Assembly (NCBI GenBank): GCA_030591195.1
Contig: JAUVBO010000275.1
Location: 1 to 5,530 of the forward strand
Length of the DNA: 5,530 nucleotides
Source of the DNA: Pseudomonadota bacterium
GTDB taxonomy: Bacteria > Myxococcota > Polyangia > GCA-2747355 > JACKDQ01
Direction of reading: 5' to 3'
The translations under genes were made by a program, and so were the position numbers. The notes under the pieces were generated by a model. The model did not search any database, was not told the DNA's origin, and worked only from the letters and a program-made list of their open reading frames with translations. Of this stretch, positions 1 through 5,530 are shown piece after piece; position 1 is the stretch's first letter; every line of letters begins with the position of its first letter.

Positions 1-202
1 CCGCGGCCAGCGCTCGCTGGCGCGCGCGAGGATAGTCGTCGTCGATCCAGTCCAACGGCTGCTGCGCCAGGGCCCTGGTGGCGGCGGGCGAGACATCCTT
101 CGCGCGGTCAGGGTTCGCGGCGCGGTCAGGTGAGGCGCAGGTGCAGCCAGCGGCAGTGGCGGCGAGCACGGCGCAGAGCGAGAGCATCGATCGTCGTTTC
201 AC
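1..202 (-). CDS. Lipoprotein, N-terminal part only, possibly thioredoxin-like
   Basis: The frame is open from a GTG at 202-200 to the left edge: 67 codons with the C-terminus missing. The start KRRSMLSLCAVLAATAAGC is a classic lipoprotein signal: a basic n-region, a short hydrophobic core and a Cys at residue 20 after AAG. The mature protein should therefore be lipid-anchored outside the cytoplasm. GTG is chosen over the in-frame ATG at 187-185 because it supplies the Lys-Arg-Arg n-region and has GGAG 9 nt upstream (212-215). After a Pro/Asp/Ala-rich linker the visible part ends in LDWIDDDYPRARQRALAA. That resembles the segment just before the CxxC motif in many thioredoxin-like lipoproteins, but the motif itself would lie outside the window, so this call is inference. 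The gene begins 25 nt after the read-through end of the M28 peptidase gene on the same strand, which suggests one operon. Confidence 0.7.
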   Translation of the reverse strand, partial: MKRRSMLSLCAVLAATAAGCTCASPDRAANPDRAKDVSPAATRALAQQPLDWIDDDYPRARQRALAA

Positions 203-227: not shown

Positions 228-1262
228 TCACGGCTTGTTGGCGAGGGTCGCGAGGGTGGCGATCACGCCGCGGGTGACGTTGGCGTGGAAGGTCAGGTTG
301 AGCGTCTCGACCGTGTCGGTGACTGTCTCGTAGTGCGGGTTCGGGATCGGGTGATCGTGGTCGCTGGCGTCGTACTCTTCGATCGCGAACAGCGCTGCGT
401 AGCCTTCTGACCAGAAGGCGCCCTCGTCACCTCACCCACAGTGGTCGCTGACGATCAGCTTGGTCCTGAGCGCCGTGTGCTGGGCCACCGCCGCGGCCAT
501 CTCCTCGGCCAGGCTGCGGTAGGCCGGCTTGGTGGCGAGGTCGAGGTCCTCGTCGGCCGGGCCGTAGCCGATCATGTCGACGTTGATCAACCCGAGCATC
601 TTCTCTCGCGGCAGCACCGCCTTGAGCTGCGTGACGTAGGCCGACGAGCCGATCAGCCCGCGCTCCTCGTTGGAGAAAAAGAGCAGGCGGATGCCGCGGC
701 GGGGCGCGCAGCCGGCGAGCACGCGCGCCGCCTCGAGCACCGCCACGGTGCCCGAGGCGTTGTCATCGGCGCCCGGTGCGAGGGCCTGGTCGTCGCTGTT
801 CGAGTCGTAGTGGGCCCCGGCCATCACCAGCTCGTCGGGCCGCTCGCTGCCGGCGATGTCGACGATCAGGTTGACGAAGCTCGCGCCGAGGTAGCTGTAG
901 CGGTGCTCCTCGACGGTGACGCCGGCGAGCCCCGCTAGCTGGCCGCGGAGATAGGCCGCGGCCTTTGTCTGCCCCTCGAGGGTCCGGCGCTCGCCGAGCC
1001 CGACCAGGTGCTCGAGGTCGGCGAGCATCCGCGCCGGGTCGACCCTGGCGAGCAGCTCCTCTCCGGCGAGGCACCGGTTGGTCGCCAGGCCCCGGTCGGC
1101 TCCCGGCGGCGCGTCGGGGGCGGGGGCGGCGAGGTCGGCGCTGGGCAGGCCCCGATCGGGCAGCGGTCCGCTCCCGCCGCCATCGCCGCTGCAGGCGGCG
1201 GCCAGCAACCCGAGGGCGACCGTGACCTCTCTCCAGTGAAGCTTGCTCATCCATCGCAGCAT
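228..1262 (-). CDS. M28-family metallopeptidase lipoprotein, probable selenoprotein (Sec277)
   Basis: This is a predicted exported zinc aminopeptidase-type enzyme. An N-terminal lipoprotein signal ends at Cys24 (LLAAAC) and is followed by a Gly/Pro/Asp/Ala-rich linker (about 25-60). The M28 domain shows GAHYDS (metal ligand His151), PGADDNASG (bridging Asp166/167), SNEE (catalytic Glu199 and ligand Glu200) and NVDMIG (ligand Asp229). An in-frame TGA at 432-434 follows SDHCG. Reading through gives 67 further residues with family-typical GAFWSEGYAALFAIE and NPHYETVTDTVETLN, ending at TGA 228-230 (344 aa in total). Stopping at 432 would remove the last metal ligand region and the final strands. 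A SECIS-like hairpin at 402-419 supports selenocysteine at residue 277. The position where the family usually has a final metal-binding His (HT after NPxx) reads Glu312, with His310 two residues before it. An alternative start is Met5 (1250), which gives a more usual signal length; neither start has a clear ribosome binding site. If it is not a selenoprotein, it is a pseudogene or contains a sequence error. Confidence 0.85.
402..419 (-). promoter_or_regulatory. Bacterial SECIS-like hairpin inside the peptidase gene
   Basis: In the minus-strand mRNA the element reads GCCUUCU-GGUC-AGAAGGC: a perfect 7-bp stem with a GGUC tetraloop. The loop begins 20 nt after the UGA (19 nt between). In E. coli fdhF the SelB-recognised GGUC loop begins 19 nt after its UGA (18 nt between), so both spacing and loop sequence agree with a known SECIS. 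The 3' arm is coded by TCA GAA. In the 276 codons before the UGA all 15 Ser are AGC/TCG/TCC and all 17 Glu are GAG, so these two codons look chosen for RNA pairing; one further GAA lies nine codons later. The bulged U of the E. coli element is absent, but it is not universal. Confidence 0.8.
432..434 (-). other. In-frame UGA, probable selenocysteine codon (residue 277)
   Basis: TGA lies in frame between ...SDHCG and GDEGAFWSEGY... of the M28 domain. No frameshift is needed and no other stop occurs before 228-230. The residue falls in a Cys275-Gly276-Sec277 motif. TGA also ends the kinase gene and this gene itself, so a general reassignment of TGA to an amino acid is unlikely. Confidence 0.78.
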
Positions 1263-1305
1263 ACACCATGATCCGGACCCTCGGCTGGCAGGGCGGCGTT
1301 GGCGT

Positions 1306-1335
1306 TTGCACGGGGCCCCTGTGGTCGGCTAGCCT
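1306..1335 (+). promoter_or_regulatory. Weak sigma-70-like promoter candidate for the kinase gene
   Basis: TTGCAC (1306-1311), an 18-nt spacer and TAGCCT (1330-1335) lie in the gap between the divergent peptidase and kinase genes. Transcription would start near 1342, downstream of the ATG at 1268 and upstream of the ATG at 1373, which agrees with the later start. The -10 match is poor (3 of 6), so this is only a candidate. Confidence 0.25.
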
Positions 1336-1372
1336 CGATCACTCGCTGCCGAGAGCCGAGGACGAGCTTGGG

Positions 1373-3442
1373 ATGGACCCGATTCGCACGGACCCGATTC
1401 GAGTGCTGTACATCGGAGATCGAGCGGACCAGCGCCGCTCGCTGGCCGAGCACCTCGAGGTCCGCGGGTGCAGCGTCGCGCTCGCCTCGTGCGGCGCCGA
1501 GGGGCTCGCGGCGGTGCGCGCCGGCGCGGATGGTGCCAGCCCGCTGGAGGTCGTGGTCTGCGACTACCAGCTGCAGCAGGAGACTGGCCTGGAGGTGCTC
1601 GGCGCGCTGCGCCGGCTCGATCCCGAGCTGCCGTTGATCATTCTCACTTCCCACGGGTCGATCCCTCTGGTCGTCGAGGCGATCAAGCAGGGCGCGTTCC
1701 AGTTCATCACCAAGCCCTACGACCCGGACGCCCTCGAGGTGGTGGTCGGCCGGGCGCGCGAGCATCGGCTGATGCAGCAGCGGCTCGCTCGCGACGCCAG
1801 CGAGCGCGAGGCCCTCGAGGAGGAGCTGCGCCGGCGCACGCTCTCGCTCGAGCGGGTCAACGCCGAGCTGGCGACCAACACCGAGGTGCTGCAGGCGATC
1901 CTCGACTCGTCGCCGACGGCGATCCTGATGGTCGATCTCGACGGCCGGATCACCGCCAGCAACCGCGCCACGGGCGAGATGTTCGGCGTCGATGGCGAGG
2001 TGGCGATCGGGCAGACGATCGACGCCTTCCTCGAGCGGATCGAGCCCTGCTTCGCCGACCGGCAGGGGTTCCGGCGCCTGGCCGAGCAGCTCAAGCGGGA
2101 GCCGGACAGCCATGACGTTGGGAGCGAGCCGGACCACGGGCGGATCTTCGAGCGGATGCTCGAGGCGGTGCGGCCCCAGCGGCGCTACCTCTCGCTCTTC
2201 TGCGCGCCGGTCCGCGACCGGTGCTGCCGCGAGCTCGGGCGGGTCTGGGTCTGCTCCGACGTGACCCAGCTCAAGGCGGCCGACGAGCAGCTGCACATGA
2301 TCGTCGATCTCTCGCCGGTGCCGCTGATCATCACCCGGGTCGAGGACGGCGAGATCCTCTTCGCCAACCAGCCGCTCGGCGAGCTGGTCGGTATCGCCCC
2401 CGACGAGCTCATCGGACAGCGGTCGCCGGATTTTTATTGCAGCGCCGAGGACCGGACCCTGGCGCTGCAGCGGCTCGAGCGCGACGGCGAGCTGCGCAAC
2501 CACGAGGTCTGCTACCGGCGGGCCGATGGCACGACCTTCTGGGCGCTGGTCTCGATGGCCACGGCCCAGATCGATGGTCGACGGGCGATCATCGGTGCGA
2601 TCAACGACATCAGCGAGATGAAGCGGGTGGTCGAGGATCTCGAGCAGGCCAACCTCGAGCTGAAGCAAACCCACACCCAGCTGGTGCAGAGCGAGAAGAT
2701 GGCGGCGCTCGGGATGCTCGTCGCTGGCATCGCCCACGAGATCAACACCCCGGTGGGGGCGATCAACAGCACCCACAGCACGCTGGTTCAAGCGGTCGCC
2801 AAGCTGAAGAAGGTGCTGCAGGAGACGATCCCCGAGCGGCTCGACAGCGACCGCAAGCTGCAGCTGGTGTTGCGGGTGATGGATGAGTCGAACCAGGTGA
2901 TCGAGTCGGCCGCCGGGCGGGTGACGAGCATCGTCCGGCGGCTGCGCTCCTTCGCGCGCCTCGACGAGGCGGAGCTCAAGGCGGTCGACCTGCACGAGGG
3001 GCTCGAGGACACGCTGGCGCTCCTGCATCACGAGCTGAAGCGCTGCGTCGAGCTGGTTCGTGACTACGGCGAGCTGCCACGGGTTCCCTGCTACCCCGGG
3101 CCGCTGAACCAGGTCTTCCTCAACCTGCTGGTCAACGCCAAGCAGGCGATCGCCGACAAGGGCACGATCGGGATCTCGACCCGGGTCGAGGGCGACCGGG
3201 TGCTGGTGGAGATCCGTGACGACGGCCACGGTATCGACCCCGAGACGGTGAAGCGGATCTTCGACCCGGGCTTCACCACCAAGGGTGTCGGCGTCGGCAC
3301 CGGCCTCGGCCTGTCGATCTGCTACCGGATCATGCAGGACCACCACGGCAAGATCCGCGTCGAGAGCCAGGTCGGCGAGGGATCGACCTTCACCGTGGTG
3401 CTGCCGCGCGACCTCGACAAGATCCTCGGCAAGGACCTCTGA
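1373..3442 (+). CDS. Hybrid REC-PAS-PAS sensor histidine kinase
   Basis: A cytoplasmic two-component protein of 689 aa with no membrane segments. An N-terminal receiver domain (about 10-130) has phospho-acceptor Asp64 (VVVCDYQL), Thr92 and Lys114 (TKPYDP). A helical linker (about 130-170) leads into two PAS domains (about 170-300, with an extra segment near 225-265, and about 303-415). A coiled stretch (415-440) precedes the dimerisation helix with the H-box GIAHEINTP (phospho-donor His455). The ATPase part shows the N-box NQVFLNLLVNAKQAI (579-593), the G1 box DDGHGID (616-622) and the G2 box GTGLGLS (642-648). All catalytic residues are present. Because the receiver comes first, it probably takes phosphate from an upstream kinase to control this one. 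The ATG at 1373 is chosen because the receiver fold begins within ten residues; an in-frame ATG at 1268 would add 35 non-conserved residues and sit 5 nt from the divergent gene. No response regulator gene is adjacent on the visible side, so its target is unknown. Confidence 0.93.
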   Translation: MDPIRTDPIRVLYIGDRADQRRSLAEHLEVRGCSVALASCGAEGLAAVRAGADGASPLEVVVCDYQLQQETGLEVLGALRRLDPELPLIILTSHGSIPLVVEAIKQGAFQFITKPYDPDALEVVVGRAREHRLMQQRLARDASEREALEEELRRRTLSLERVNAELATNTEVLQAILDSSPTAILMVDLDGRITASNRATGEMFGVDGEVAIGQTIDAFLERIEPCFADRQGFRRLAEQLKREPDSHDVGSEPDHGRIFERMLEAVRPQRRYLSLFCAPVRDRCCRELGRVWVCSDVTQLKAADEQLHMIVDLSPVPLIITRVEDGEILFANQPLGELVGIAPDELIGQRSPDFYCSAEDRTLALQRLERDGELRNHEVCYRRADGTTFWALVSMATAQIDGRRAIIGAINDISEMKRVVEDLEQANLELKQTHTQLVQSEKMAALGMLVAGIAHEINTPVGAINSTHSTLVQAVAKLKKVLQETIPERLDSDRKLQLVLRVMDESNQVIESAAGRVTSIVRRLRSFARLDEAELKAVDLHEGLEDTLALLHHELKRCVELVRDYGELPRVPCYPGPLNQVFLNLLVNAKQAIADKGTIGISTRVEGDRVLVEIRDDGHGIDPETVKRIFDPGFTTKGVGVGTGLGLSICYRIMQDHHGKIRVESQVGEGSTFTVVLPRDLDKILGKDL

Positions 3443-3732: not shown

Positions 3733-5025
3733 ATGGCGACAGACAAGGCACTAGCGCTGTTGATCATCGCCTGAGGTGCGATCTTGGGGGCTCGACAGGC
3801 CGGAGCTGAGACGGCGGCGGGTGACGAGTCGTCCGGCGATCGGTCGACGGCCTTGGCGGCGCAGGCGGCTCGGCAGAACCCGAGCATTGCAGCGATCAAG
3901 TCGCGAGTCCGCGCGCTCGAGCAGCGGATCCGCGCCGCCGGCGCCTGGCTCGACCCGAAGGTCGCTGTCGAGTACTCCAATATCCCCATCGATAGCTGGA
4001 CCCTGGGCGATCACGGCATGAGCGGTCTGCAGCTCAAGCTCCAGCAGACCTTCTTCTTCCCGGGAAAGGTCGGACTACGGCAAGAGGTGGCCAGGGGCGA
4101 GGTTCGACAGCAGCGGCTGTTGCTCGAAGAGCGCAAGGTCCAGCTTCGCGCGGCTGTCAAGCGTGCCTACTACAGCCTCGCCCTCGTTCGCCAGCTGAAG
4201 AAGGTGACGCAGGACCACATCAAGCTAGTCGATCAGTTCATCGATGTCGTGCGGGTCAAGTACGAGGTGGGCAAGGTCGGGCAGCACGATCTGCTGCGGC
4301 TGCAGGTGCTGAGGAACAAGCTGAGAGACGACCTCAAGGGCTTCGCGCGGGACGATCGTGCCCTGACCGCGACGATCAACGCCACGCTGCACCGCGCGGT
4401 GAGCGTCCCGATCAGGACGCCGGAGCGGATCTTCGAGCCCCGACTGCACCGAACGATCGAGCAGCTGACCGCAGCAGCCAGCCGGTCTCGTCCCCTGCTC
4501 CGCTGGTACCTCGAGCAGGCTCGAACCCGCCGCGCCGCGGCCAAGCAGGCGGCGAGGGAGGGCTACCCCGATCTGACCGCGTGGATCGGCTATCGGGTGC
4601 GGACCCAAGCCGGCCCGGACGTGGGGACCGACTTCTTCTCCGCAGGCATCTCGGTGCCGATCCCGCTCTCCCACGACAGCCGCTGGGGCAGCCAGCGGCG
4701 AGAACAGAGAGCTCGCGCGAGAGCTGCCGAACAGCAGCGAGAGGCAGAGCTTGACCGCATCCGGGGATCGCTCGGCCGGCGCGTCGCTGCCTGGACCAGG
4801 GCGGCACAGCAGGCGCAGACCTATCGCGACCAGCTGATGCCCCAGGCCCACCGGACGCTGGACGCCACCTTCGCCGCCTATCAGGTGGACCGCGCCGATT
4901 TTGCCTCGCTGTTTCAGGCAGAGATCCAGCTCTTGGACTTCGAGCGCACGATTCGGCGCTCCGAGGCACTGGCCGCCCTGTCTCGCGTCGAGCTCGAGGC
5001 GCTGACCGGAAGACAGGTTCGATAG
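3733..5025 (+). CDS. TolC-family outer membrane factor of a metal efflux pump, with in-frame UGA
   Basis: This is the outer membrane channel of a CusABC/CzcABC-type tripartite pump, 430 aa if the TGA at residue 14 (3772-3774) is read through. The N-terminus MATDKALALLIIA-x-GAILGA is a signal peptide. With Cys or Sec at x it makes a lipobox-like IIA-C, as in lipidated channels of the OprM/CusC type; otherwise signal peptidase I could cut after QAGA. The mature part is largely helical and shows outer-membrane-efflux features: LQQTFFFPGK (104-113), YEVGKVGQHDLLRLQ (177-191), a second repeat half with ISVPIPL, and a C-terminal helix ending in RVELEALTGRQVR. Length is in the family's normal range. 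It ends with TAG 11 nt before the adaptor gene, so the two are co-transcribed. Starting at TTG 3784 would avoid the TGA but remove the export signal. If the TGA is a true stop, the gene is a recent pseudogene. Confidence 0.85.
3772..3774 (+). other. In-frame UGA in the signal peptide of the outer membrane factor
   Basis: TGA sits between LALLIIA and GAILGARQAGAE in the frame of the channel protein, with hydrophobic signal-peptide sequence on both sides. TGC (Cys) there would complete a lipobox, so a single-base change or error TGC to TGA is possible. A weak hairpin follows at 3790-3806 (GCTC/GAGC, 9-nt loop starting with G, 20 nt after the UGA). It meets only the loosest SECIS rules and lacks a GGUC loop. 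Confidence 0.5.
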
Positions 5026-5036
5026 TGGAGACCGAA

Positions 5037-5530
5037 ATGAAGCGCAAGAAAGCTCGCTTGTTCTTGGCCACGACCATCGCCCTGGTGATGGTCGTCGGGG
5101 GTCTGCTGGCCTGGCAGATCCTCGGGTCCAGTGAGCCGACCGCCCGCCAGCTCGACGACGGCGTCGTCAGCGTCGCTCACGCCCAAAGCAAGGGCGGCAA
5201 GCAGCTCCACACCTGCGGCATGCACCCCAACGTGATCCAGGAGGGGCCCGGAACCTGCCCGATCTGTGGCATGGACCTGACTCCGATGCGGAAGGGCTCG
5301 GCCGGCGACCCTGCCAACAAGGCGAAGCAGGGGGGCAAGCGTGGCGAGGGCACGGTCACCGTCGATCCGGTGATGGTCCAGAACATGGGCGTGCGGGTGG
5401 CCCACGTCAAGCGGGGGGCACTGTCGCGGCGCGTGAGGACCATCGGCGAGGTGGTCGTGGCCGAGGACCTGGTCTCGGTGGTCAACCTCAAGTTCTCGGG
5501 CTGGATCGAGCGACTGCATGTCGACCAGAC
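5037..5530 (+). CDS. cusB: CusB-type periplasmic adaptor with heavy-metal-binding domain, N-terminal part
   Basis: Membrane-fusion subunit of an RND metal efflux pump; it links the inner membrane pump to the outer membrane factor and hands over metal ions. The window holds 164 codons and the frame is still open at the right edge. It begins with a basic n-region and a membrane anchor or uncleaved signal (residues 7-30). A small heavy-metal-binding domain follows, with Cys60, Met62, His63, Cys74, Cys77 and Met79 (HTCGMHP and CPICGMDL). A Lys/Gly-rich linker leads into the start of the adaptor barrel (from about 105, TVTVDPVMVQNMGVRVAHV) and GWIERLHVDQ. This domain order is typical of CusB-like copper/silver adaptors, though zinc/cobalt relatives are not excluded. 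GGAG (5027-5030) lies 6 nt before the ATG. The gene follows the channel gene by 11 nt, and the RND pump gene should come next beyond the window. Confidence 0.93.
   Translation, partial: MKRKKARLFLATTIALVMVVGGLLAWQILGSSEPTARQLDDGVVSVAHAQSKGGKQLHTCGMHPNVIQEGPGTCPICGMDLTPMRKGSAGDPANKAKQGGKRGEGTVTVDPVMVQNMGVRVAHVKRGALSRRVRTIGEVVVAEDLVSVVNLKFSGWIERLHVDQ

Follow-up and report, generated by a model that had tools for sequence, protein, structure and literature searches.

The M28 gene and its in-frame TGA

The DNA analysed here (the window) is a stretch of 5,530 nucleotides (GenBank JAUVBO010000275.1, assembly GCA_030591195.1) from a Pseudomonadota bacterium placed by GTDB in the Myxococcota (Polyangia). 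Its minus strand carries a gene for a lipoprotein of the M28 peptidase family with one internal in-frame TGA, and the product is very probably an exported lipoprotein with an M28 fold, the UGA at 434-432 being decoded as selenocysteine (Sec) via a downstream hairpin and the usual SelB/tRNA-Sec route. The following features make up the locus:

228..1262, minus strand: M28-type lipoprotein gene, 344 codons including one internal TGA
438..440, minus strand: Cys275, proposed partner of Sec277 in Cys-Gly-Sec
432..434, minus strand: in-frame TGA, proposed selenocysteine 277
402..419, minus strand: hairpin GCCUUCU-GGUC-AGAAGGC, resembling a selenocysteine insertion sequence (SECIS)
327..329, minus strand: Glu312, aligned with the His of zinc site 5
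231..431, minus strand: 67 codons after the TGA, M28 C-terminal part (GDEGAFWSEGYAALFAIEEYD ... NPHYET)

The open reading frame (ORF) begins at ATG 1262 and runs for 276 codons to TGA 434-432, beyond which the same frame continues for 67 further codons up to TGA 230-228; with a single Sec at position 277, the read-through product is 344 aa long. Translation could plausibly begin at ATG 1250 (codon 5) instead. Read by eye from the translation, the N-terminus resembles a lipoprotein signal (LLAAAC, with a lipobox-like LAAAC and Cys24), from which the product is predicted to be exported. Pfam Peptidase_M28 (PF04389) matches the read-through product at 112.5 bits (cut-off 21.3) over residues 131-335, spanning the TGA, and the in-frame UGA lies within a conserved coding region, as expected of a bacterial selenoprotein gene.

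The 67 codons after the TGA contain M28 motifs, are 54% identical to the full-length relative P0014 and keep a coding pattern in their codon-position GC (0.63/0.43/0.90, vs 0.74/0.50/0.94 upstream of the TGA). Of the two alternative frames in 231-431, one has two stops and the other is open past its first codon; in DNA this GC-rich, the open frame by itself is weak evidence. The signal rises above chance because these codons carry both the M28 motifs and the coding GC pattern, and because 62 of 71 relatives end at this point.

Close relatives and their common break point

A protein search with the read-through protein returned 305 proteins, the best 120 of which were used, and a second search with a 66-row alignment returned 106; P0002 corresponds to the truncated product of the window gene itself. 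The close family was defined as P0003-P0067 plus P0122-P0127 (n = 71), with its boundary in the first search where E jumps from 8.1e-51 to 1.8e-39 at the next match. P0095 (1.3e-55, next in the second search) and the 112-aa P0129 were left out of the 71, although both end in Cys-x (HCY, QCG). Source labels of the family proteins are ena, jgi, lgn and ncbi, and two carry organism names (P0042, a Deltaproteobacteria metagenome-assembled genome, MAG; P0126, a Proteobacteria MAG).

By pairwise alignment of protein records, 62 of the 71 relatives end exactly at residue 276, one residue before the TGA, a codon seen in the window only. The C-terminus is Cys-x-stop in 65 of the 71 (62 Cys-Gly, two Cys-Ile and one Cys-Ala), so that the residue corresponding to Cys275 is penultimate. 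Selenoprotein families typically reveal themselves by homologs that have Cys in place of Sec. Three relatives (P0062, P0124 and P0125) are full length and read CGC where the window reads CGU, keeping the equivalent of Cys275 and placing Cys in the Sec column; Cys and Sec are thus equivalent at this position at the protein level. P0014, also full length, has PGM at the motif, neither Cys nor Sec, a single case hinting that the two residues work as a pair. The 344-aa selenoprotein proposed in the preliminary description of this DNA is accordingly supported by homologs with Cys at column 277, and by most other close homologs being cut exactly there.

In a neighbouring M28 group, 11 of the 28 rows that reach this region (P0097, P0099, P0101, P0103, P0104, P0107, P0111, P0112, P0115, P0117 and P0119) have CYGDDH at the motif loop, with one Cys kept and no Sec or Cys partner.

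A quick maximum-likelihood tree (LG+G4, supported by the Shimodaira-Hasegawa-like approximate likelihood ratio test only, 26 of 73 inner branches being left open) comprises the window, 65 of 72 family rows (P0095 added to the 71) and 10 outgroup rows, 76 rows in all. Six rows shorter than 215 aa and P0052 were omitted, and the motif residues of the family rows were trimmed off. The tree label 'Sec' denotes the stop position, the actual TGA being seen in the window only. Proteins that stop there are spread over many deep branches, and the labels need three changes, vs a mean of 13.3 when shuffled (none of 200 shuffles was as low). P0126, which stops there, adjoins the clade of Cys forms, while P0095 forms a long branch on the outgroup side, its placement unsure.

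The SECIS-like hairpin

A perfect 7-bp stem (GCCUUCU/AGAAGGC; 419-413 and 408-402) begins after 12 nt past the UGA and presents a GGUC loop (412-409) starting 19 nt beyond it; the folding energy is -10.5 kcal/mol for the 40 nt counted from the UGA and -8.9 kcal/mol for the bare hairpin. The preliminary description had reported the TGA, the 67 M28 codons and this hairpin, and all three lie where it placed them. Constraints for the bacterial SECIS (bSECIS) in PMC13188914 are a loop of 3-9 nt, a stem of 4-16 bp, G in the first two loop positions, a spacing of 16-37 nt and a minimum free energy of at most -7.5. The window hairpin lies within every one of these limits (loop 4, stem 7, GG, 19 nt, -10.5 kcal/mol).

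The SECIS of E. coli fdhF likewise presents GGUC in its apical loop, with a spacing from the UGA close to that in the window, whereas the stem sequences are unlike.

Fold and zinc site

The structure model of the read-through product shows a confident M28 fold from residue 61 onward, which the 67 codons after the TGA complete. Together with the Pfam score above the gathering threshold, this places the protein in the M28 family by sequence and by fold. Window residues H151, D166, E199, E200 and D229 are common to 77, 77, 75, 74 and 76 of 77 rows, respectively; zinc-site residues 1-4 and the catalytic Glu are present in the window protein, their individual assignment following from the alignment with the Vibrio proteolyticus (Aeromonas) leucyl aminopeptidase (1amp).

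At zinc site 5 (numbering of Table 1 in PMC7522609), the window has Glu312 where 1amp has His256. According to PMC7522609, its M28 reference structures carry His at sites 1 and 5. Among the 28 rows that reach this region, 26 have His, P0120 has Asp and the window has Glu, so that the window protein lacks the site-5 His expected of a catalytically competent M28 aminopeptidase. Its peptidase activity is therefore uncertain. The earlier name 'M28 metallopeptidase' thus holds for family and fold, but the activity it implies is not secured.

The CGYAC segment of 1amp aligns with the Cys-Gly-Sec loop of the window, which differs in having Sec for the second Cys and one intervening residue vs three. 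A literature search on a disulfide in the Vibrio enzyme gave no confirmation. The window protein also has a lipoprotein-type signal, in contrast to 1amp, a secreted proenzyme.

Searches for DNA of relatives

Genome contigs were scanned with the single window protein as query, hence with window-specific patterns, and yielded five distant loci only (four Sphingomonas and one Gemmatimonadetes MAG), with best segments 35-48% identical. Two scans of viral contigs gave no matches and another gave 85 distant M28 relatives, of which 80 were kept (best segments at most 45% identical). A viral-contig motif match, L129, was rejected as chance, with no M28 frame. A six-frame scan of the collected loci for the Cys-x-stop/Cys motif produced one match, L031, which looks unlike the family motif. 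Among 92 plasmid records found by tblastn, the best 20 of which are 27-33% identical, no family member was recognised.

Overlapping whole-genome searches (100, 116, 195, 290, 82, 1, 386 and 40 genomes), run with no positive control and scoring the best candidates per genome (five in one search), likewise led to no recognised family member; the best match among those listed (E 1.8e-35, 39% identical) has no internal stop. Choosing phyla by similarity to the window's histidine kinase yielded no family member either (46 of 56 genomes matched at 1e-20, 2 of 80 at 1e-70 and 0 of 80 at 1e-85).

Points against selenocysteine decoding

Several observations weigh against decoding of the UGA as Sec. The stop codon, the downstream frame and the SECIS are known from the window DNA alone, the relatives being protein sequences. 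Glu312 at site 5 may point to a relaxation of constraint beyond the TGA, and the tails of P0052 and P0127, both among the 71 relatives, are divergent. With the C-terminal part alone as query, only P0141 and P0142 were obtained out of 23 candidates, and neither is a Sec form: P0141 has the very sequence that P0014 shows between its motif Met and its C-terminal end, and P0142 is a close variant of this piece that stops short of the Sec column. Finally, the bSECIS test, in our own implementation of the PMC13188914 constraints, is passed by 16 of the window's 133 TGA triplets, counted in every frame of both strands, and by 8.2% of 5000 mononucleotide shuffles of the downstream 72 nt. Since such hairpins are common by chance in the window, the hairpin is support and not proof: it conforms to the published constraints, but is much weaker evidence than the preliminary description implied.

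Neighbouring genes

The remaining features of the window are:

2..202, minus strand: second putative lipoprotein ORF, the next one downstream of the M28 gene; start only, truncated at the window end, no family match
1268-3442, plus strand: histidine kinase, with a receiver at its N-terminus and two PAS stretches, divergent from the M28 gene
3733-5025, plus strand: outer-membrane efflux gene of the TolC family, whose likely signal peptide contains an in-frame TGA (3772-3774)
5025-5528, plus strand: CusB/HlyD-type metal-efflux adaptor with heavy-metal-binding domain (HMBD), start only, cut by the window end

In ORF 2-202, DWIDDDYPRARQRALAA resembles the start of thioredoxin-like proteins, but such a nature is unsupported (no family match, and one chance-level PDB match with E 0.18). 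The real start of the histidine kinase gene may, at a guess, be ATG 1374. After ATG 3733, the TolC-family translation reads MATDKALALLIIA*GAILG...; the TGA here may stem from a base error, from a start farther downstream or from decay. Sec at this position was rejected, 3772 not being among the 16 bSECIS-like matches.

Alternative explanations

The alternative that survives best, though still very unlikely, is genuine termination, with a naturally shortened M28 family that ends in Cys-Gly and with the downstream M28 sequence as a relic. It would agree with 65 of the 71 relatives being recorded as ending at the break point and with the altered site-5 ligand beyond the TGA. A relic would decay, yet the 67 codons hold no other stop, keep coding composition, are 54% identical to P0014 and complete the fold. 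The full-length Cys forms P0062, P0124 and P0125 argue in the same direction.

Slightly less probable still is reading of UGA as another amino acid (e.g. Cys, or Trp under an altered genetic code). Translation of TGA 3772-3774 as Trp or Cys would fit a plausible signal sequence in the TolC-family gene, but both the histidine kinase gene and the M28 gene terminate at TGA, and the column residue in the four full-length members of the 71 is Cys (three) or Met (one), never Trp. A sequencing error or nonsense mutation (pseudogene) in a single contig has a negligible probability, for although the second in-frame TGA in the TolC-family gene makes base errors or decay conceivable, 62 other proteins from four source collections share the break point, which a private error cannot explain.

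Discussion

Together with the coding signal after the TGA and the M28 fold, the comparison of relatives, which carries the decisive weight, speaks for a new family of selenoproteins, namely an exported lipoprotein of M28 type that bears a Cys-Gly-Sec pair. The preliminary description knew of no M28 selenoprotein, and the 2026 catalogue of 119 prokaryotic selenoprotein families and subfamilies (PMC13188914) agrees, as Table 1 holds no M28 protein and no other peptidase, and a word-start match for peptidase, protease and M28 gave no hit in its text (a match that 'aminopeptidase' would escape). In NCBIfam (June 2026), the read-through product matches LapA, PRK10199 and PRK09290 only, far below cut-offs. 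No M28 selenoprotein was found in the titles and opening abstracts of the literature searched, with subscription papers largely outside this scope; the M28 protein mentioned in PMC10531186 is prostate-specific membrane antigen, and PMC9312934 lists a trypsin-like serine protease.

Peptidase families outside M28 offer a computational precedent for Sec. In PMC2398784, trypsin-like and MucD-like selenoproteins are predicted from the Global Ocean Sampling (GOS) metagenome, the former with Sec at a conserved Cys; these are serine proteases, not zinc M28 proteins. Cys-x-Sec itself recurs in other families of Table 1 in PMC13188914: an UshA-like protein (NF041198), ferredoxin-thioredoxin reductase, rhodanese form 3 and thioredoxin-like Sec.1. 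Characterized selenoproteins mostly have a thioredoxin-like fold, according to that paper. The proposed pair in the window protein would stand outside these families, in an M28 lipoprotein. The UshA-like selenoprotein is, like the M28 product, a protein of hydrolase type.

As a mechanism, we propose that SelB, bound to the hairpin, would lead the ribosome to insert Sec at UGA 434-432, and that the lipoprotein would be exported after Sec insertion. Cys275-Gly-Sec277 could then form a reversible selenenylsulfide in the active-site loop, which would lie close to the zinc site. That this bond tunes or protects the loop, most likely as a redox switch, is a reasonable but far from assured idea, somewhat short of what we would call probable. 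Where ordinary aminopeptidases of this type have two Cys, the window protein would have a faster and more reversible redox pair. A broader proposal, which we consider rather doubtful, is that selenium dependence extends across a large, deep-branching clade of exported M28 lipoproteins in which Cys-Gly-Sec is a redox centre next to the zinc site, and that some members (such as the window protein, with Glu at site 5) have perhaps shifted from peptidase to redox or metal-binding roles.

If Sec decoding holds, a zinc-peptidase fold joins the selenoproteome, and redox control of an extracytoplasmic aminopeptidase-type protein is suggested. There would also be an annotation gap, with dozens of database entries (65 among the 71 relatives examined) about 67 residues too short, and lacking one zinc ligand, because their UGA was taken for a stop.
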